Shown here one piece after another: positions 50,098 through 60,632 of a DNA stretch of 64,000 nucleotides. Both the position numbers and the translations under genes were made by a program. The notes beneath the pieces were generated by a model. The model ran no database searches. It had not been told where the DNA came from and saw nothing but the letters and a program-made list of their open reading frames with translations. How positions within the stretch are numbered: position 1 is the first letter of the stretch; each line of letters opens with the position of its first letter. Source of the DNA: Polaromonas vacuolata (lineage in GTDB: Bacteria; Pseudomonadota; Gammaproteobacteria; Burkholderiales; Burkholderiaceae_C); assembly GCF_012584515.1 (NCBI RefSeq), contig NZ_CP051461.1, forward strand, positions 3,405,501-3,469,500, read 5' to 3'.

Positions 50098-51294
50098 CTA
50101 AAGCTTGAGATTTCTGGCCCAAACTAACGCTGAGAGATGTGCTTGATTGACCTGCTCGGCTGTGACCAACAAAGGCACGGCGATGTTGGCGGCCGCGCCG
50201 TTTCGGCGCTCGATAGCTTCGGCCAACGTCAGAAAAGGTCCATAGACGCCGCCACGTGAAATCAGCGCTTGGTTGACAGATTCAGACAACACGACTTCTT
50301 GAAGCACCTGCTCTATCGGTATGCCCAACAGATGATCGAGCTGCGAAAACATACCCACCACAAAGAGATTTTCAGCCTCACTCTTGGAGAGAAAATCACG
50401 TGCCAATAACTCCACGAATCGCCCTCTGATAATCGACAGCTCTAGCAAGGCCGGACTGAAGCCGTCGTTGCTGGTTCTAGCTAGCATCAAAATAAGCCAG
50501 CGAAACAGCGGCATGTAGCCGAGCATGGCAACAGCTTGGCGCAAGGACTGAATTTCAACCGTCAAACCAAAACCCGCAGAGTTGATATAACGCAGCAACT
50601 TGAAGGAAAGCGTTGAATCGGTTTGCAATATTTTCTCAAGCTCCCGTATGTCAACGTTTTCCTGCACCATCTGCAACAGCCGCAAAATTTGCTGCGTGCC
50701 CGAGCTCAATTTGATTGAGGGCTGATACGCACGCGACAAGTTGCAAAGGTTTTCGAATATACACAAACCGTTTTGCTCAGCGAAGGCATTGAACTCAGTC
50801 CAACTTGAAATCTGCTCGATCACCACATGGGAGAGCGGATAGCGGTATGAGATTAGTTTGACAACATCAGTGAACTGCTGGTCAGCAGAGTCCATCAAAA
50901 AGTAGCCAATGCGGGGCAATAAGATTTCATTTTGCCGCATGAAGTCCAGCGTAGCGCCGCGCACTGCTAAGCCAAAGCCGCGCTTATGCAGGGCTAAAAG
51001 CAAGATCACACTGGCGTTGTCCTGCAGCGATTCGGAGCGCATGACCAGCACGGTATTAGCGGGTGTCATGGTCTGAAGACTCTCGGACAGCAAGCTGCTA
51101 GAACAAGTGTTTAAAAAACACAGCCCGGACGTGAGTTCAGTCAGCTGCTCAGCCACTATGGCGAGTAATCGGTGGTTATTTTGAGTCGTATCAACCCCTT
51201 CTCCATCAGGTTGCTGCCAGCCAAACTGGTATCCCACCACATGCTGCTTGGCATCCATTAGTGGTGCCCTGAAAAGATATTTTTCTTCGACCAT
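50098..51294 (-). CDS. Degenerate EAL plus HDOD domain protein
   Basis: A 398-residue protein. Residues ~1-190 resemble an EAL domain without its catalytic signature: LFRAPLMDAKQHVVGYQF replaces the usual start and no EAL/ExLxR remains, so c-di-GMP hydrolysis is unlikely. Residues ~195-390 are HDOD (LLQMVQENVDIRELEKILQTDSTLSFKLLRYINSA, then LGYMPLFRWL). Proteins with this YuxH/CdgJ layout affect motility, which fits the adjacent chemotaxis genes. Divergent from the SpoIIE-type sensor gene. Confidence 0.8.
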   Translation of the reverse strand: MVEEKYLFRAPLMDAKQHVVGYQFGWQQPDGEGVDTTQNNHRLLAIVAEQLTELTSGLCFLNTCSSSLLSESLQTMTPANTVLVMRSESLQDNASVILLLALHKRGFGLAVRGATLDFMRQNEILLPRIGYFLMDSADQQFTDVVKLISYRYPLSHVVIEQISSWTEFNAFAEQNGLCIFENLCNLSRAYQPSIKLSSGTQQILRLLQMVQENVDIRELEKILQTDSTLSFKLLRYINSAGFGLTVEIQSLRQAVAMLGYMPLFRWLILMLARTSNDGFSPALLELSIIRGRFVELLARDFLSKSEAENLFVVGMFSQLDHLLGIPIEQVLQEVVLSESVNQALISRGGVYGPFLTLAEAIERRNGAAANIAVPLLVTAEQVNQAHLSALVWARNLKL

Positions 51295-51569: not shown

Positions 51570-53507
51570 GTGCAAAGCGCATACAAGCATTTACTGCGAC
51601 ACATACTGATGCAAAAATTATCTCTTCCCAGCCATCCGTCTAATCACTTTCGACTCAGTCTTCGCACCTGGTTATTCATTTTTTCTTTGCTAGCGATGCT
51701 GCCGCTGCTGCTGTTTGCCATCCACACGATAAATCGCATCAGTAATGCACAGACAGAATCGGTGCTGAGAAATCTTCAGCGTCAAAGCAAAATACTGACG
51801 CATTCAACTCAGAACGAGCTTGATGCAGCGTTTAGTGCCCTCCAGATGTTGGCATCCGGTGCCGAAATTAATCGTACGGCGCTGCCGCGCTTGTATCGTC
51901 ACGCTAAAAATGTAGTCCAAGATAATCCAGCTTTTACAGCCATCACACTAACCGATGCGAATGAGCAACTGCTTTTCCATAGCGACGCGCCCCTAGAGAA
52001 AAGCAACTTAAAGACAAATGATCTTGAACTGACTGAACCGGTCTTTAAAAACGGTCGACCTAATTTATCGAGCTTATCTGGCACGTCGCAAAACGGACGT
52101 CCAGTGGTGATACTTTCAGCCCCCATATCGCAAGGTGACAAGCTCGCTTATTGCCTGCGCTTATACCTGGGTCTGGAATCATTCGATCGTCTTTTAGCCA
52201 ATGAACTCCTACCCTCTGGCTGGGTGGCTGTCATTGTTGATGCAAAAGCTCGCGTCATTGCACGCAGTCTTGAAGCGAATGATTTTTTTACGCCCAACAC
52301 ATTGTCGGATCTGCTGTCGGCGTCGCCGCATAACGATGGCCGTCTGAGCGAAACCACCACGCTTAATGGCACGGTAATGACCACGCTGGTGCGAACCCTT
52401 CCCGGCGTCAATTGGCGCTTGGCGGTGGCTGTGCCGACCCAGCAAATGAACGCACCACGCTTACAGCTGCTGCGTGAACTAATGCTACTCACCGGTATGT
52501 GGCTGACATTGTCTTTTTTACTGTCGCAAATTCTAGCCACTTACTTGTTACGTCAACTCAAACGGATCACCTCGATGGTGGAAAAGAATTCCGATCCGTC
52601 AGTAATTCGCCTGCGCATCAACGAATCGTGGCAATTTATTCAAACCATCGCAATAAACCAACGCAATGCGCAACGGGTAAAAGACAACTTAAGCGACACG
52701 TCACGCCAGCGCGATGAAGTTCATGCTTTATATGAACAAGCTCCCTGTGGTTACTACTCTATAGACACTGAGGGGCGGATCATAAGGATTAACCAAACCT
52801 TAATCCTTTGGCTGGGCTATCAACTGCACGAAATGCTGGGCTACAAATCAAGTGATTTTCTGGCCGGGGATGGTAGAGACGCATTCAAACAAAATTTTTC
52901 CACCTTGTTAGCTCAGAAAAAACTAAAAAATCAGGAGCGTGTTTTTATACGCAAAGACGGCAGCGAAATGCCAGCGCTGATTAGCGCTGAAGTCGTGTTT
53001 GACGACGCCGGCCAAGTCGTATTAATACGTGCTGTGGTATTTGACAACACCGAGCGCAAATTAGCCCAGCAGACCCTGGCAGACGCACGGGCGCGCGAGA
53101 TGGAAACGGGTCGCCAAATTCAACTCACTTTACTGAGCACACCTCAGCTTTCAGCGTATGCCGGCTTATGGTTGTCGACCTTTAGCCAAGCGTCGCGCGG
53201 CGTTGATGGCGACTTTCTTGATGTGGTCGCGGTGGGCGACCACCTGTTAGATATAGTCGCCGGTGATGTGATGGGCAAAGGCGTGCCAGCGGCGCTTATG
53301 GGTGCGGCCATCAAGCTTCAGTTCAGCCGTAGCAAGTCAGAGCTCTTTGGACAACGCGACACGCGCGAAAATCCACCGCAACCAGCAGAAATTGTGACAG
53401 CAGTAAACCGCGCTATTGCGCCGCAATTACAAGTGCTGGGCGCCTTTGCCACGCTGATTTATTTGCGCATCGACACGCAGGAAAATCTTTCGCGGATTCA
53501 AGTCTGA
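51570..53507 (+). pseudogene. 5' part of an IS-split membrane sensor-PAS-SpoIIE phosphatase gene
   Basis: GTG at 51570, preceded by GAGGT. Helix ~33-54, periplasmic Cache-like sensor to ~300, second helix ~304-326, PAS ~385-495 (EQAPCGYYSIDTEGRIIRIN), then the first half of a PP2C/SpoIIE phosphatase with the metal motifs VDGDFLDV and AGDVMGKGVPAALM. The natural sequence ends at Arg642; the IS adds Ile-Gln-Val and a stop. The missing half is at 58424-59197 on the other strand. Half a PP2C fold is unlikely to be active, though the sensor part could still be made. Confidence 0.88.
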
Positions 53508-54575
53508 AGTGCAACTTTGAAATTAACCGTACGGGTGGGTGAGATGTGAGAGCATCCAAGCTTCCCGACTACCAAGTCAAAGTTGCCCAGAATGATTTAC
53601 ACACACCTCACCCGTGACGAACGTTACCAGATTGCAATCCTCGTCAAAGCAAACTTCAATCAAAGTGAAATTGCAAAAATGATGGACCGTGATAAATCGA
53701 GCATCAGCCGTGAGTTGCGTCGTAACCGCGGTCTACGAGGCTATCGCCCTAAGCAGGCAAATGACAAAGCCCAAGAACGTAGACTTGCCTGCGCCAATAG
53801 TCCTAGAGTTGCTGACTCGACATGGGCTGTAGTGGAGGAAAAGTTGGCTGAGGCTTGGAGCCCCGAGCAAATCAGCGGCCACCTCGAAGCTAGCCACCAA
53901 CCCGGTGTTAGCTATGAGAGCATTTACCAGTACATCTACGCTGACAAACGCGCGGGCGGCACCTTGCATAAAACACTGCGTTGCCAGAAGACGCGAAAAA
54001 AACGCAGCAGTGGCCGTGAACGGCGCGGCACCATCTCTCACCAGGTCTCAATAGAACTGCGACCCGACATCGTGCTTGAGCGTGCGCGCTTTGGCGACTG
54101 GGAGGCTGATCTGGTGATTGGTGCCGGGCAGAAGCAAGCACTAGTGACGATTAATGAGCGTGTCTCTCGCTATTCAATAATTTTCCACGTGCCATTCAAA
54201 ACAGCGCAAGCCGTAGGGGACGCGTTAATCACTTTACTCAAACCGTTCGCTCATTGCGTGCACACTCTCACGACTGATAACGGCAAGGAATTTTCTCAGC
54301 ATGAACGAATAGCTTCTGCGCTGAGTGCAGATTTCTTTTTCGCCCATCCATACGCCTCGTGGGAGCGTGGGGCGAACGAGAATATGAACGGTTTGATTCG
54401 CCAGTTTTTCCCAAAGGGGATGCGCTTTAATTGCATCACCGACGATGACATTGCTTTAGCGATGCACAGGCTCAATCATCGTCCTAGAAAATGTTTAGGG
54501 TATCGAACGCCGCATCAGGTTTTTATGGAACAGTTAGAGTCCTATCAGCATACGGTTGCACTTCAAGCTTGAATC
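53495..54575 (+). mobile_element. IS30-family insertion sequence, left copy (1081 bp)
   Basis: Left tip GATTCAAGTCTGAAGTGCAA and the inverted right tip GATTCAAGCTTGAAGTGCAA differ at two positions. One transposase gene fills the element. The left flank (tttcgCG) and right flank (CGcccttc) belong to two different disrupted genes, so this copy recombined with the inverted copy at 59198-60278. Confidence 0.93.
53592..54572 (+). CDS. IS30-family transposase (left copy)
   Basis: A 326-residue DDE transposase from the ATG at 53592. The N-terminal helix-turn-helix (LTRDERYQIAILVKANFNQ, then MMDRDKSSISRELRRNRG) binds the IS ends. The catalytic triad lies in FGDWEADLVIG (Asp), TLTTDNGKEF (Asp) and ERGANENMNGLIRQFFPKG (Glu), the IS30 arrangement. 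It is full length and nearly identical to the copy at 59201, differing visibly at one residue (Ser/Ala in GKEF[SA]QHE), so transposition is recent. Confidence 0.95.
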   Translation: MIYTHLTRDERYQIAILVKANFNQSEIAKMMDRDKSSISRELRRNRGLRGYRPKQANDKAQERRLACANSPRVADSTWAVVEEKLAEAWSPEQISGHLEASHQPGVSYESIYQYIYADKRAGGTLHKTLRCQKTRKKRSSGRERRGTISHQVSIELRPDIVLERARFGDWEADLVIGAGQKQALVTINERVSRYSIIFHVPFKTAQAVGDALITLLKPFAHCVHTLTTDNGKEFSQHERIASALSADFFFAHPYASWERGANENMNGLIRQFFPKGMRFNCITDDDIALAMHRLNHRPRKCLGYRTPHQVFMEQLESYQHTVALQA

Positions 54576-54811
54576 CGCCCTTCGATAAGCATGGCTTGTC
54601 TAGCCAAAAGACCCAGTGCCACAAATCCAAAACTTCCTGCTGCACCGGCCAAGCGGTGCAGGGCTGCTAGTCTTGCGGAGGGATTCTGAGCTTGTATTAG
54701 TTCTGCCTGTCGCCGAACCAAACCCGCAACAAATTGCTGCTGCAATTGAACGTAAGCCAGCGCTAATGCGTTTTCTTCCCCGTTATCTGGTGTTCGCTTA
54801 GCCACGACCAT
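54563..54811 (-). pseudogene. Hpt-domain protein, last residues replaced by the IS
   Basis: An 82-residue histidine phosphotransfer protein. LHRLAGAAGSFGF carries the phospho-acceptor His52 in the canonical H-x-L-x-G-x-x-x-x-x-G context. Its ATG overlaps the response regulator by 14 nt. The natural end ATC GAA GGG CGC GAG GGT TAA is broken after GGGCG; the IS now supplies Arg-Ile-Gln-Ala and a stop. Since only the last few residues changed it may still work, but its link to the STAS gene downstream is lost. Confidence 0.8.
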
Positions 54812-55184
54812 GCTGCCAATAAATTAAGACATCCTTGGGCAGTGTGACTGGATCAAAAGGCTTGACAATAATTCCGGTGGAGCCGTGCTCTAACAAGGCT
54901 TCTACTTCGTTGCGCATCGCTTTTGCGGTGAGAAAAACCACTGGTATGCCGCGCATGATTTCAAGTGCTCTCAATTGTTTGAGAGTCTGTGGGCCACTCA
55001 GTTTTGGCATCATGACATCGAGTAAAACCAGCTGCGATGCAAAGGTTTGAACTTTTTCTAATGCCTCGTAGCCGCTACTGCACAGGCATAACGTAAATCC
55101 GCCCAATCGCTCTAAGCTGAACTTGAGTATTAGGCGTATGTCAGGATCATCTTCCACGCACATCACACGTTTGAGTTCAGTCAT
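54798..55184 (-). CDS. Single-domain response regulator
   Basis: A 128-residue receiver starting at the ATG at 55184, which overlaps the kinase stop by 8 nt; longer upstream frames run through the kinase gene and are ignored. Acidic pair at 11-13 (VEDDPD), phospho-acceptor Asp56 in LVLLDVMMPKLSG, and Lys in IVKPFD. No output domain. With the neighbouring hybrid kinase and Hpt genes it looks like one step of a phosphorelay. Confidence 0.85.
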   Translation of the reverse strand: MTELKRVMCVEDDPDIRLILKFSLERLGGFTLCLCSSGYEALEKVQTFASQLVLLDVMMPKLSGPQTLKQLRALEIMRGIPVVFLTAKAMRNEVEALLEHGSTGIIVKPFDPVTLPKDVLIYWQHGRG

Positions 55185-56637
55185 TTGGTCTTTCTGTGCG
55201 CTGTTTGTACGGTGATTCGACGCGCTCGTGATGAGCGGGTAAGGACACGCTAAAGACGGTTCCTTTTCCGGGTGCTGATTGCACCGAAATGCTGCCACCC
55301 ATGCGCTCGACCAATACGCGGCTGATGTGTAGACCCAGACCGGTGCCGCTTTGGATACGTCGATCTGAACTATCTGCTTGCGAGAATTTCTCGAACAGGC
55401 GGCTGCGAAACGCGGGACTAATACCCGGTCCATGGTCGCGTACGTCTATGCGCCAGCCTTGCCGATTACCGTGCAAGGAGAGGTGTACGGTCTGTCCAGC
55501 TTGCGAGTGCTTGATAGCGTTTGATAGTAAGTTGGCCATGACTTGAAGGAAACGGTCCGTGTCGACCATGGCGCGCGCGCGCGGCGCTTGGCTTTCACAT
55601 TTAAGGTTTACGTTGCCACGTTGGGCATAAGCTTGATTGGCTGCAATTGCTTCTTGCATCAAACTTTCAAGTGATGCTGGCTGGGAATTAAAAATCATCC
55701 GCTCGGCTTCGAGTTTGGTTAGATCCAGTACATCGTCAATAAGCCGGCTGAGCCGACTACCATTGCGCTGCGCTACGGTGGCAAGTTCTACTGCCTCTGG
55801 AGGCAGTTCACCGGCTGCGCCTGCTGCTAGCAAACTTACTGCGCCCAACACTGATGTCAACGGCGTGCGCAGTTCGTGACTGACGTTCGCGAGGAATTCA
55901 TCTTTCATACGCTCTATCTGACGCCACTCACTGAGATCGTGTAGCACTATTGTGTGTAAGGTTTGCCCATCTAAATGCCACTGACTGGCCGATATGCCCA
56001 ACGGGATAGTGTCTTGGCCCTGTGGTTGAAACTTTATTTCTCGGCTCGAGATCAACGTCTGAAGATCGATTCCGGTTAGCGCCTTAACTGACTCGCCCAA
56101 AATATGCTTCGCATGGCCCGAGCCAAATAGTTTTTGTGCCGCAATGTTGGCAGCACAGAGTTTGCCGTTAGCGTCGGTAGTGATGACGGCGTCGGCGATG
56201 TGCTGATGGATGGCATTTTGCTGTTTTGTCAGTACGGTCTGCTCTGCTTGTAGCGTCAGAATGCGTTGGTATTGACGCAGTTTGACGTTCAGTATTTTCA
56301 AATCTATGGGCTTGAATAAGCAGTCGTCTGCGCCGATTGATAAGGCCTTGGTGAAATAGGTGTCTCCGACCAGTGAGGATGTCGCCACCACGGGTAACCA
56401 ACGATTTGTAACGCGCTCATGAAGCAGTCTAATTACCTCTGAGCAGCCTAGTCCTGGCAACAACAAGTCAAGGAAAACAACGTCAGGTTGTATGTTGTCC
56501 AGGTATTCCAGGGTTTCGGTGTCATTGAGAGCTGGCACACCGATATGACCCAAACTTTTCACCTGTTCAAGCAAAGACTGTCGGGATTCGTCCTTCACGT
56601 CAGCGATCAAAATCACCAGTTTTTCTCTCGACTGCAT
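55177..56637 (-). CDS. Cytosolic REC-PAS histidine kinase
   Basis: A 486-residue protein without membrane helices. An N-terminal receiver (Asp57 in VVFLDLLLPGLG, Lys109 in LFKPID), a PAS domain (~145-240; VITTDANGKLCAANIAAQKLF), HisKA with His254 (FLANVSHELRTPLTSVLG) and a complete ATPase (NLLSNAIKHS, DHGPGI, GTGLGLHISRVLVERMGG). It starts the operon with the single receiver and Hpt genes. This operon lies inside the inverted 4.6-kb segment, so its direction relative to the chromosome has changed. Confidence 0.87.
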   Translation of the reverse strand: MQSREKLVILIADVKDESRQSLLEQVKSLGHIGVPALNDTETLEYLDNIQPDVVFLDLLLPGLGCSEVIRLLHERVTNRWLPVVATSSLVGDTYFTKALSIGADDCLFKPIDLKILNVKLRQYQRILTLQAEQTVLTKQQNAIHQHIADAVITTDANGKLCAANIAAQKLFGSGHAKHILGESVKALTGIDLQTLISSREIKFQPQGQDTIPLGISASQWHLDGQTLHTIVLHDLSEWRQIERMKDEFLANVSHELRTPLTSVLGAVSLLAAGAAGELPPEAVELATVAQRNGSRLSRLIDDVLDLTKLEAERMIFNSQPASLESLMQEAIAANQAYAQRGNVNLKCESQAPRARAMVDTDRFLQVMANLLSNAIKHSQAGQTVHLSLHGNRQGWRIDVRDHGPGISPAFRSRLFEKFSQADSSDRRIQSGTGLGLHISRVLVERMGGSISVQSAPGKGTVFSVSLPAHHERVESPYKQRTERPND

Positions 56638-56760
56638 CGAAGACCCCAGAGTGTTTTAAGTTTAGTAATTAATTTGTTTTACAAGTTCACAACATTATTA
56701 TGTGAAATTAAAGCTTAAATGTTACTTAGCGTGACAAATTTACTTAATTCAAGATAAAAA

Positions 56761-56958
56761 ATGATTCGACAAGCAACCTCCACCCAATGGAAAAACCAGT
56801 GCAGCCTTCATCGCGCGAGTGCTGGTCAACTGTGCTTGTGTCCCTATCAGTTGCGTCTTCGAGAAGCCGTTATGCAAGTGTTCAGGCACATAGCGGTGCT
56901 GGGTCAAACCGATGCTTTTGCTATTGAACCTAGCGCCGCTACAGAGTTAAGGCTATGA
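56761..56958 (+). CDS. Small ORF coupled to the sugar-nucleotide/transferase-like gene
   Basis: A 65-codon frame whose stop overlaps the next ATG as ATGA (56955-56958). It contains YQLRLREAVMQVFRHIAVLG and several Cys residues; no family is recognised. The tight overlap suggests either a real small protein or a leader frame for translational coupling. No strong ribosome site precedes it. Confidence 0.4.
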   Translation: MIRQATSTQWKNQCSLHRASAGQLCLCPYQLRLREAVMQVFRHIAVLGQTDAFAIEPSAATELRL

Positions 56959-58427
56959 GCTTTGAGAACGCTCCTCGGGTTGTGATTTTCATGACCGCTC
57001 CACGTGCTGTCGACATTCCTTGCCTTGATAACTCTTTAGCTTGTTTGTTGACGTTTGGTTCCGCCACATTTGCCGAGCGTGTTCTGGACAGCTGTGCGTT
57101 GGCCGGTTTTCGCGAAGTAGATATTGTTCTTGGCGAGGATTCAAAATGCGTGCAGGAAGCGTTAAAAGACGACGCACGCTGGGGCATAAAGCTGAACTGG
57201 CACTATGTCCCAGTCAGCGCCACACCTTACGCAATACTTCAACGCTTAGCTCTGCGCGATGGACAAAGACTGTTGCTCGGCCACGGCCATCAGTGGGTGT
57301 CAGATCGGATTTTGTTCTCTCTGATTAAGTCTTGCGACGTCGCCATGCATATTGCGAAGGCGGTGTCTTGGACGGGCTGGCTTAGCATGGAGCGGAGTTC
57401 TGTTGCCTTCATCGACCCGACTATGAATTTCGCTGCGCTGAGTAGATTGGCTGCAGCGACACGTCCCGAGCGCTGCCTCATTGCCCGCTATAGCGAGTTC
57501 GCCAATCCTGACAGTGCTTTGTCGTTGCTGCTAACGCAAAATTTGCCCCTTTATGATATGACTGGCGATGCCGTGCCTGAGTCTTGGCTGCGCATGTCTT
57601 GGGGCGCGATGAGTCCGGATGCTATCGTTCATCCCCAATCCATCATGACGGGGCCGATACTGGTTGGCCCTGGTTGTTTAATCGCTCGTAACGCCAGGGT
57701 CGGGCCAGGAGTAGTTCTCAGCCCTCACGCACTGATCGCACAAGGTGCTGTGGTCAAGGGCTCGTTGGTGTTGGCAAACACTTATGTTGACAGTCGCAGC
57801 GTACTTGAGCATTGCTTAGCGCGCGGTAATACCGCACAGATGTGCAACCGAATCGGGGGTCAAGCGGCCAATAGTGATGGCATGAATTCGTCAATGCTGA
57901 TGGCACAGCCTGTTAGTGCAGGTGTTTTTTGGCAGCTACTGGCGGCATGTCTGGCATTGACATTTCTACCCAGTTTTTTACTTTTGCTGCTCTGGAATTA
58001 CTTTAGTTTTCAGCCCTTTCTTTGGCAAAAAATGCGAGCTGTATGCTTTTGTCGCCTTGATGCTGGACCGTTGTACTGCTCTGATTTACGTCAGCCGCAT
58101 TTGTCTAGCGCGCGCTCGGTTTGGCTGGTTGGTTGCTATGGCGCGCTTCTCGATGTCATGCAAGGGCGACGCAGCTGGTTTGGTATGCGGCCACGTACTC
58201 AGACTCAGTGGAGCCGCCTAGGTCGCGATTGGCAAAAACTGTTTTTGCAGATGGCACCGGGATTTTTTTATACGCCGGCTTGGGGTGATAACAACGCGGC
58301 TCTTGATGCAGATGCACAGGTGGCGGCAAACGCTTATTTGGCTGCACAAAGCAGCTTTGAACGCCGATTAAGTATTTTCAACACATCTGCTCGGAAGGCT
58401 TTTATACGCTTGAATTACCTATTTTAA
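56955..58427 (+). CDS. Nucleotidyltransferase-like, left-handed beta-helix and sugar-transferase-like fusion
   Basis: A 490-residue protein. Residues ~1-215 have an NDP-sugar-pyrophosphorylase-like fold but lack the usual GGxGTRL signature. Residues ~225-290 show hexapeptide repeats (IVHPQSIMTGPILVGPGCLI, ARVGPGVVLSPHALI) of a left-handed beta helix. One helix follows (~325-350), then a C-terminal region with DVMQGRRSWFGMRPRTQ and APGFF, resembling the GxxSxxGPRP and PG motifs of bacterial polyprenyl-phosphate sugar transferases. A role in exopolysaccharide initiation is inferred. It ends overlapping the SpoIIE fragment by 4 nt, tail to tail. Confidence 0.6.
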   Translation: MSFENAPRVVIFMTAPRAVDIPCLDNSLACLLTFGSATFAERVLDSCALAGFREVDIVLGEDSKCVQEALKDDARWGIKLNWHYVPVSATPYAILQRLALRDGQRLLLGHGHQWVSDRILFSLIKSCDVAMHIAKAVSWTGWLSMERSSVAFIDPTMNFAALSRLAAATRPERCLIARYSEFANPDSALSLLLTQNLPLYDMTGDAVPESWLRMSWGAMSPDAIVHPQSIMTGPILVGPGCLIARNARVGPGVVLSPHALIAQGAVVKGSLVLANTYVDSRSVLEHCLARGNTAQMCNRIGGQAANSDGMNSSMLMAQPVSAGVFWQLLAACLALTFLPSFLLLLLWNYFSFQPFLWQKMRAVCFCRLDAGPLYCSDLRQPHLSSARSVWLVGCYGALLDVMQGRRSWFGMRPRTQTQWSRLGRDWQKLFLQMAPGFFYTPAWGDNNAALDADAQVAANAYLAAQSSFERRLSIFNTSARKAFIRLNYLF

Positions 58428-59197
58428 ATTGACGTTTGCAGACACAGACGCACGCTATTGACGCCATCTTCGAAGCTGTACTGAATCGGATGAGATATCG
58501 CGTTAACAATCTGCAGGCCAAGACCACTTTCTGGATAGGTCGAAAAATCGGTGTCTGCCAGTATTTCTGGACTTTCAAAGCGCGCACCTAAATATTTGAA
58601 ATCTAGCGCCAAACCTCTGGGCATCGGCTCGGTGATTAGCTCAACAGGCGCTTCTGCTAAAAGATTTTGTCCATGCGCAATCACGTTGGTGAGCAGTTCA
58701 ACGGCTGCAACGCTGAGCAAGCTGGCATTGACTTCGGACAGCCCACTGTTGAGTGCCTGCTGCACCACAAATTTACGTAACGGCAGCACAGACGCTAGCG
58801 ATATCGGCAACTCCAGCCGCGCACTGTCTGGACGTGACTGGTGGCGTAGCAGCAGCATGGTCAAATCATCAGTCAGAGTCGCGCCAACTGGCAGCAAGTC
58901 GCGGCGAATGGCGTGCAAGGCCATGGCCGGTGATCGGTGGCGTAGCACCTGGCTAATCGCGCTGGCGATGACTGGCTCGCGGCCTAAACGCTCGCCATTC
59001 GCCAGCAACGCATCGGCTGCGCCGTCTGAGCAAAGAAACAGCGCATCGTCTTTATTTAGCTCGCAGACATCTTGCGTGAAGCTCTCATCGCTGAGCAGAC
59101 CCAATGGTGGATGCTGATTAATCAGCCGCCGCGCTGATCCCGATGCGCTTATCTGCAGCGCTTCTTCATGCCCGCAGCCCACCCATGTCAAAAGGCG
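58424..59197 (-). pseudogene. 3' part of the IS-split SpoIIE phosphatase gene with RsbW-like kinase domain
   Basis: The fragment begins at the IS border. It reads R-L-L-T-W-V-G-C-G-H, continuing the phosphatase fold (GCGHEEAL and CSDGAADALL metal motifs), and ends with a HATPase_c_2 domain (AAVELLTNVIAHG N box, ESGLGLQIV G box) like RsbW anti-sigma kinases. It has only a TTG at 59191 as a possible start and no ribosome site. Joined in frame to the 5' part at 51570-53494 it gives about 898 residues. Confidence 0.88.
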
Positions 59198-60278
59198 GAT
59201 TCAAGCTTGAAGTGCAACCGTATGCTGATAGGACTCTAACTGTTCCATAAAAACCTGATGCGGCGTTCGATACCCTAAACATTTTCTAGGACGATGATTG
59301 AGCCTGTGCATCGCTAAAGCAATGTCATCGTCGGTGATGCAATTAAAGCGCATCCCCTTTGGGAAAAACTGGCGAATCAAACCGTTCATATTCTCGTTCG
59401 CCCCACGCTCCCACGAGGCGTATGGATGGGCGAAAAAGAAATCTGCACTCAGCGCAGAAGCTATTCGTTCATGCTGGGCAAATTCCTTGCCGTTATCAGT
59501 CGTGAGAGTGTGCACGCAATGAGCGAACGGTTTGAGTAAAGTGATTAACGCGTCCCCTACGGCTTGCGCTGTTTTGAATGGCACGTGGAAAATTATTGAA
59601 TAGCGAGAGACACGCTCATTAATCGTCACTAGTGCTTGCTTCTGCCCGGCACCAATCACCAGATCAGCCTCCCAGTCGCCAAAGCGCGCACGCTCAAGCA
59701 CGATGTCGGGTCGCAGTTCTATTGAGACCTGGTGAGAGATGGTGCCGCGCCGTTCACGGCCACTGCTGCGTTTTTTTCGCGTCTTCTGGCAACGCAGTGT
59801 TTTATGCAAGGTGCCGCCCGCGCGTTTGTCAGCGTAGATGTACTGGTAAATGCTCTCATAGCTAACACCGGGTTGGTGGCTAGCTTCGAGGTGGCCGCTG
59901 ATTTGCTCGGGGCTCCAAGCCTCAGCCAACTTTTCCTCCACTACAGCCCATGTCGAGTCAGCAACTCTAGGACTATTGGCGCAGGCAAGTCTACGTTCTT
60001 GGGCTTTGTCATTTGCCTGCTTAGGGCGATAGCCTCGTAGACCGCGGTTACGACGCAACTCACGGCTGATGCTCGATTTATCACGGTCCATCATTTTTGC
60101 AATTTCACTTTGATTGAAGTTTGCTTTGACGAGGATTGCAATCTGGTAACGTTCGTCACGGGTGAGGTGTGTGTAAATCATTCTGGTCAACTTTGACTTG
60201 GTAGTCGGGAAGCTTGGATGCTCTCACATCTCACCCACCCGTACGGTTAATTTCAAAGTTGCACTTCAGACTTGAATC
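59198..60278 (-). mobile_element. IS30-family insertion sequence, right copy (1081 bp)
   Basis: Same length and ends as the copy at 53495-54575, in opposite orientation. Flanks are aaaaggCG on the left (SpoIIE 3' part) and CGcgaggg on the right (STAS leader). Only a handful of base differences from the left copy are visible, at the transposase start and the GKEF[SA]QHE codons. Confidence 0.93.
59201..60181 (-). CDS. IS30-family transposase (right copy)
   Basis: A 326-residue DDE transposase from the ATG at 60181, with the same helix-turn-helix, FGDWEADLVIG, TTDNGKEFAQHE and NENMNGLIRQFF motifs as the left copy. It is full length with no stop or frameshift, so both copies could be active. Its presence in opposite orientation gave the substrate for inversion of the DNA between them. 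Confidence 0.95.
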   Translation of the reverse strand: MIYTHLTRDERYQIAILVKANFNQSEIAKMMDRDKSSISRELRRNRGLRGYRPKQANDKAQERRLACANSPRVADSTWAVVEEKLAEAWSPEQISGHLEASHQPGVSYESIYQYIYADKRAGGTLHKTLRCQKTRKKRSSGRERRGTISHQVSIELRPDIVLERARFGDWEADLVIGAGQKQALVTINERVSRYSIIFHVPFKTAQAVGDALITLLKPFAHCVHTLTTDNGKEFAQHERIASALSADFFFAHPYASWERGANENMNGLIRQFFPKGMRFNCITDDDIALAMHRLNHRPRKCLGYRTPHQVFMEQLESYQHTVALQA

Positions 60279-60293
60279 CGCGAGGGTTAAAAA

Positions 60294-60632
60294 ATGGAAC
60301 TAATACATGAAATACAGGGCGACCGTGTGCTGTTAATTCATTATCAAGAAGACAATTTAGATGCCAGCAACGTTCGCACCTTCAGAGATGCCGTCCAAAC
60401 ATTGATGCAAACTCAAACACGAATAGTGCTGGATATGTCACAGCTTAAATTTGTAGACAGTTCAGGCTTAGGTGCACTCATTTCATGCTTGCGCGATGCG
60501 AACAGCCGCAAAGGAGACTTTCGTTTATGTGCGATGGCGCGGCCAGTATTCGCACTTTTTGAATTAATGCGCATGCATAGAGTGCTAAGCATTCATGACA
60601 GTGTAGAAGAGGCCGTTGACTCTTTCGTATGA
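60294..60632 (+). CDS. STAS-domain anti-sigma-factor antagonist
   Basis: A 112-residue single STAS domain (SpoIIAA/RsbV type). LKFVDSSGLGALISCL contains the phosphorylatable Ser (56 or 57). Such proteins bind an RsbW-like kinase when dephosphorylated by a SpoIIE/RsbU phosphatase. Its natural partners, the split SpoIIE-HATPase protein and the Hpt operon, are now separated from it by IS30. Only 15 nt separate the IS border from its ATG, so it has probably lost its original promoter. Confidence 0.9.
   Translation: MELIHEIQGDRVLLIHYQEDNLDASNVRTFRDAVQTLMQTQTRIVLDMSQLKFVDSSGLGALISCLRDANSRKGDFRLCAMARPVFALFELMRMHRVLSIHDSVEEAVDSFV

Follow-up and report, generated by a model that had tools for sequence, protein, structure and literature searches.

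A well-supported 4.6-kb inversion between two IS30-family copies in a signalling gene cluster of Polaromonas vacuolata

We analysed a 64,000-nucleotide stretch of the Polaromonas vacuolata chromosome (assembly GCF_012584515.1, contig NZ_CP051461.1, positions 3,405,501 to 3,469,500 of the forward strand; hereafter the window), in which two copies of an insertion sequence (IS) of the IS30 family lie within a cluster of signalling genes. Comparison of the copies, their flanks and related loci gives good support to an inversion of 4,614 bp between the two copies, which parts the two halves of a gene for a SpoIIE-type phosphatase. The support is strong because the rejoined SpoIIE aligns without a gap to 18 relatives, its halves adjoin in all 21 loci that passed the score cut-offs and the predicted gene order exists in one relative (L079); the preliminary description of this DNA had rightly proposed such a flip. 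The event itself is an ordinary one whose mechanism is known in kind, and this example of it is well documented. Homologous recombination between the inverted copies, together with a deletion in the neighbouring hpt gene, is its probable cause. The features that define the inversion are as follows, in window coordinates.

51570..53490, + strand: 5′ part of the SpoIIE-type phosphatase gene (dCache-like, PAS, first part of PP2C; PF07228 positions 4-73 of 192)
53488..53490, + strand: TTT, left mate of the spoIIE target duplication (flank comparison)
53491..54579, + strand: IS30-family copy 1 (L001), 1,089 bp, ends CGCG...CGCC, haplotype 804T 806T, transposase at 53583-54572
54580..59193, no strand: inverted segment, 4,614 bp, the middle of the signalling gene cluster
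58424..59193, − strand: 3′ part of spoIIE (rest of PP2C plus HATPase_c_2; PF07228 positions 76-191 of 192, PF13581), inverted and apart from the 5′ part
59191..59193, + strand: AAA (TTT on the gene strand), right mate of the spoIIE duplication (flank comparison)
59194..60282, − strand: IS30-family copy 2 (L023), 1,089 bp, haplotype 96A, transposase at 59201-60190

The two copies bound the segment, oppositely oriented, within inverted arms (53490-54594 and 59179-60283) of 1,105 nt and 99% identity, figures that rule out a chance origin. Their assignment to the IS30 family, already made in the preliminary description, is upheld by the transposase of copy 1, which belongs to NF033563 (307 bits; cut-off 80) and also matches PF13936 and PF00665, an IS30-type helix-turn-helix plus DDE/rve core. 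The true ends of the element can be read directly from its copies: when oriented alike, all 30 copies first compared end in CGCG-GATTC...GAATC-CGCC, with CGCG and CGCC lying outside a 1,081-bp core. Since the 'CG' is constant in all 30, it is part of the element and not a target duplication. Three earlier figures change as a result, namely an element of 1,081 bp (now 1,089 bp), a 2-bp CG duplication (it is the next 3 bp that are duplicated) and a flipped segment of 54576-59197 (now 54580-59193). Read inward, the ends begin CGCGGATTCAAG... and GGCGGATTCAAG...; these terminal inverted repeats and the length of 1,089 bp fit the IS30 family, whose members measure ~1.0-1.25 kb, carry terminal inverted repeats and move in copy-out-paste-in fashion by way of circles or dimers.

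The chromosome, a single contig of 3,837,686 bases (3.84 Mb), holds many more copies. Searching it for the left end with up to 3 mismatches returned 70 sites (23 forward, 47 reverse), and the right end returned 67; all 70 copies were retrieved with ~1.5 kb of flank per side. Both ends are present in 63, the left ends with an exact right end, and the other 7 were excluded. A perfect 3-bp target duplication flanks 53 of the 63 two-ended copies, its length constant as in the IS30 family, whereas 5,000 shuffled pairings of flanks averaged 1.9 perfect matches and never exceeded 8. The expansion of the element in this chromosome is a recent burst, 42 of the 63 copies lying within 3 bases of the commonest sequence. 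In 86 other genomes of the genus, for each of which up to 5 candidates were scored, no long match was better than 74% identity over part of the element. As a separate observation, the left ends are strand-biased (47 on − against 23 on +; binomial p 0.006), and equally so on either side of 1.85 Mb (11/23 and 12/24, +/−).

At the SpoIIE junction, the former contiguity of the gene is directly visible. The 5′ frame, whose GTG start is tool-assigned and uncertain, is interrupted by copy 1 and extends into it as far as a stop at 53507. Joining the two parts with a single TTT restores a frame of 895 residues that runs gaplessly across the junction in alignment with 18 relatives, these being the loci with a strong match to the 3′ half. 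The frame does continue over the join as had been suggested; the join then proposed, on the other hand, adds three residues that have no counterpart in those relatives. One relative, P0001, found among ~8,000 candidates sharing most words with the query, is an uninterrupted protein of 884 amino acids, 79% identical over residues 520-895 and with PF07228 whole (4-191). Between hpt and the 3′ part of spoIIE, the inverted segment carries three further genes.

54798..55184, − strand: receiver (single-domain response regulator; PF00072; start codon picked by eye)
55177..56637, − strand: receiver-HisKA-HATPase histidine kinase (domain search; 59% identical in the same-genus genome G066)
56955..58427, + strand: nucleotidyltransferase/hexapeptide-repeat-like protein, hereafter the transferase (family matches weak, under curated cut-offs)

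Related loci bear out the restored arrangement. The gene-order search covered 80 loci, of which 34 were inspected; counts of contiguity and strand rest on 40 scored loci (34 of the 80 relatives' loci plus 6, with 46 more distant loci omitted). In all 21 loci passing the score cut-offs (20 distinct, L076 and L161 being the same contig), the SpoIIE halves are contiguous and on the same strand. The gap between the two half-matches amounts in all 21 to one residue (query residues 640 and 1) plus unmatched query residues, and a one-residue gap is what the 3-bp duplication model predicts. SpoIIE lies on the kinase's strand in 19 of these 21 loci, the transferase runs counter to the kinase in all 19 loci where it passed the cut-offs, and the receiver is 49-78% identical to proteins at orthologous positions in the relatives listed. 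The complete un-inverted order, SpoIIE(+), transferase(−), kinase(+), receiver(+), is present in L079. The expectation that relatives would show an uninterrupted order and a protein of ~898 residues was realized in contiguity and order, the joined frame itself measuring 895 residues.

One genome per species was searched, and no same-species genome with an uninterrupted locus was found, the best full-length SpoIIE being 79% identical; among the ~8,000 candidates sharing most words with the query, the only near-identical SpoIIE 5′ part was this genome's own. A search of 60 other genomes at 1e-40 returned 0 of 60, a cut-off too strict for the result to mean absence. SpoIIE function would be lost through the split. 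Elsewhere on the chromosome, an open frame of 814 codons holds a SpoIIE-type paralogue (709770-710303; 49% identity to query residues 463-639), which may still cover some of the broken gene's role.

The junction between hpt and the gene for a STAS-domain protein has a less simple history. Its features are these.

54580..54582, + strand: CTT (AAG on the hpt strand), half of the hpt-insertion duplication, without a matching mate
54580..54811, − strand: truncated hpt (77 shared residues of the 124 in near-identical P0121)
60283..60285, + strand: AGG, half of a duplication upstream of the STAS gene; differs from the AAG of hpt
60294..60632, + strand: STAS-domain protein of the anti-sigma-factor antagonist type (domain search; 8 bp after AGG)

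What remains of Hpt is 99% identical to P0121, a protein of 124 residues, 47 more than here, encoded on a contig of 19,258 bases, and tails like that of P0121 also occur in Hpt relatives of 80% and 54% identity. The join had been thought to complete the Hpt gene; the 47 further residues, not found here, contradict this. The 3′ end of hpt was most likely deleted at this locus, because P0121 as a whole matches this genome once, over residues 1-78, in a search that a short separated tail could escape, and its tail gave nothing credible among the 70 IS copies with their flanks (best E 0.10, 41% over 27 residues), where the whole-P0121 control matched in the window and in L001. Pfam Hpt coverage is alike in the truncated and full proteins (13-55 and 14-57 of 84) and was not used as evidence. 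STAS comes immediately after hpt, with both genes on one strand, in 28 of the 30 loci that hold the two. The order is the same here, so the neighbourhood looks native, with the hpt tail plus a spacer lost. Such a deletion, by our estimate of roughly 230 bp, would have left one element with flanks from two different sites, and Hpt function would have been lost with it.

The duplications that fail to match extend beyond this locus. Ten of the 63 two-ended copies are mismatched: L001, L023, L004 and L059, together with L002, L037, L047, L048, L049 and L068. Two of them form an exact reciprocal exchange, L004 (chromosome position 2330564, +) being flanked by TGT/AAC and L059 (1464530, −) by AAC/TGT; at least one reciprocal pair arose by chance among ten mismatched copies in 4% of trials. 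Beside L059 lies a part of DctM without its start (its PF06808 match begins at position 37), and beside L004 lies the end of DctQ. Joining the flanks of the two copies restores the DctM frame, the likely start of which overlaps the DctQ stop. These observations point to a second inversion, of ~865 kb, through a TRAP-transporter gene, which would have parted DctQ from most of DctM.

The ~865-kb segment (chromosome 1464530-2331652) has its midpoint near 1.90 Mb. With dnaA at base 204, the sign of the GC skew changes between 1.80 and 1.90 Mb in 20 sampled 20-kb stretches, and two of the samples, at 1.42 and 3.56 Mb, differ in sign from their own arm. Given the position of the skew switch and of the midpoint, the inversion would be roughly symmetric about the likely terminus; it was traced within this genome. 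A further IS copy (L029, 2332467) lies within ~1 kb of DctQ, in what we take to be the TRAP substrate-binding gene, and the transport cluster has seemingly been struck twice. As for the remaining mismatched copies, the mates of L047 and L049 are one base apart, and the mismatch of L037 could likewise be a one-base shift. L002 (3553177), L048 (296685) and L068 (3591187) have both ends and unmatched 3-bp flanks without a full reciprocal partner; they may be scars of other deletions.

The history that we favour for the window starts from a Burkholderiales signalling cluster (SpoIIE-HATPase phosphatase, transferase, kinase, receiver, Hpt, STAS), which the recently expanded IS30-family element would have invaded. 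One copy would have inserted in spoIIE, making the 3-bp TTT duplication, and one or two copies in the hpt-STAS stretch in opposite orientation. A deletion would then have removed the hpt tail and the spacer, leaving one element flanked by AAG and AGG, and recombination of this element with the inverted spoIIE copy would have flipped 54580-59193 and split spoIIE. That the flip was homologous recombination and not transposition, and that the deletion and inversion came in this order, we infer.

The sequences of the copies offer a further hint. Copies 1 and 2 differ at element positions 96, 804 and 806, three sites that vary elsewhere too (96A in L003 and L022; 804T/806T in L002-L005). As these differences are shared with other copies, they were probably inherited, and copies 1 and 2 would be distinct copies rather than a pair newly made by a single replication. 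If a crossover between 96 and 804 is reversed, the two haplotypes obtained are the commonest one (15 copies) and the one seen in L003, both of which occur elsewhere with matched duplications. The haplotypes are compatible with such a crossover and do not require it.

Several observations weigh against recombination with a deletion. On the gene strand, the Hpt/STAS flanks read AAG and AGG, and undoing the flip leaves that duplication unrestored; a simple history of two insertions and one crossover consequently fails at this junction, and the perfect cross-match once described for both pairs of flanks survives only at SpoIIE (TTT/TTT). STAS lies away from hpt in L077 and L080 (the two misses) and also in G066, the closest relative found, which stands outside the 30 hpt-STAS loci with its STAS on another contig. 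Weaker SpoIIE homologues in G066 (L160) and L077 lie near the kinase on the opposite strand; these pairs fell below the score cut-offs and were removed from the 40-locus count, and their halves are contiguous too. Of 18 older full-length copies listed, 17 carry 804T/806T, and L001 may be just an early copy; {96A} alone is also the haplotype of L022, a copy whose duplication matches. The right flank of L002, CCT, would match the STAS-side flank. Finally, the mechanism was judged from the assembled sequence of one strain.

A cascade through an IS30 dimer would account for a duplicated TTT alongside an AAG and an AGG that are both without mates, and would permit the copies to differ without recombination. 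Two copies of like orientation, one in hpt and the other just upstream of STAS, would have been joined by a site-specific deletion, with loss of the hpt tail, into a tandem dimer; its active junction of abutting inverted repeats (IR-IR) would then have attacked TTT in spoIIE intramolecularly, giving an inversion with one copy at each end. The deletion and the inversion would need neither homologous recombination nor a third insertion, and the locus would be a natural chromosomal fossil of a pathway described for IS30, in which the junction of two-copy dimers makes deletions and inversions, according to the available part of PMC9333248. The geometry agrees: copy 1 faces hpt with its right end and the 5′ side of spoIIE with its left, and copy 2 faces STAS with its left end and the 3′ side of spoIIE with its right. 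However, the cascade requires two insertions separated by a few hundred bases; for the ~865-kb pair of this genome, whose duplications are both perfect, homologous recombination is the simpler explanation; and the E. coli IS30 duplication is given there as 2 bp against 3 bp here, so that shared biochemistry is only assumed. We regard the cascade as unlikely, though a serious contender. Judged by its geometry, dimer transposition would leave the same exchanged duplications, and the order of events is thus not proved: the sequence first suggested, both insertions and then recombination, is plausible and unproved, since IS30 dimers also produce inversions (PMC9333248, as available).

Two other accounts seem much harder to sustain. 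A three-way history with L002 (CAG/CCT), in which the STAS-side and L002 right flanks once bordered a single insertion (CCT/CCT), would draw on the identity of CCT at the left of L023 and the right of L002, and on the separation of STAS from hpt in G066. It only shifts the mismatch, as the left flank of L002 is CAG against CTT at hpt, and it sits poorly with the hpt-STAS adjacency in 28 of 30 loci and here. One-sided 3-bp matches among ten mismatched copies would hardly be surprising (four pairs show at least one), and the open frames beside L002 are, by eye, unlike neighbours of STAS or hpt. On examination, the L002 flanks did not account for the STAS side, and we give this history very little weight. 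An assembly error or mixed population, with repeats resolved the wrong way, is scarcely credible. Inverted 1.1-kb repeats are places where assemblers can swap paths, and the judgement was made on the assembled sequence; yet one contig runs through ~70 copies with 53 of 63 duplications matched, which argues that most repeats were resolved correctly, and a path swap leaves the shorter hpt unexplained. Recombination between the inverted copies, with the hpt deletion, remains the reading we prefer.

Just upstream of the locus, window positions 50098-51294 encode a 398-residue protein with no NCBIfam family match; to the eye, its first residues resemble those of the 396-residue protein at 7018-8208 of L169, and the two may be related.

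Matching 3-bp duplications across the IS copies of a single-contig genome can reveal rearrangements without a close relative. Here the resulting ledger confirms the 4.6-kb flip and points to the ~865-kb flip centred near the terminus; exchanged duplications alone cannot separate homologous recombination from dimer transposition. To the preliminary description, the present analysis adds the correct ends of the element, the ledger of 3-bp duplications, a probable deletion in hpt and the second, chromosome-scale inversion.

Comparable bookkeeping has been used in laboratory evolution, where missing target duplications were ascribed to recombination between IS copies or to adjacent deletion (PMC11708052, available part). 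That study concerns deletions and duplications, and the word 'inversion' is absent from its main text as available. The IS30 dimer system (PMC9333248, available part) was studied with model plasmids and in the chromosome of E. coli; there, deletions and inversions arise through IS ends, and the duplications are of 2 bp. The family and the combination of deletion with inversion are shared, whereas the case described here is natural, has 3-bp duplications and would have passed through a putative intermediate. With IS-mediated inversion by homologous recombination, the locus shares inverted near-identical copies, a flipped segment and exchanged target duplications, and differs in that one exchanged duplication is mismatched and a deletion lies at the same element.

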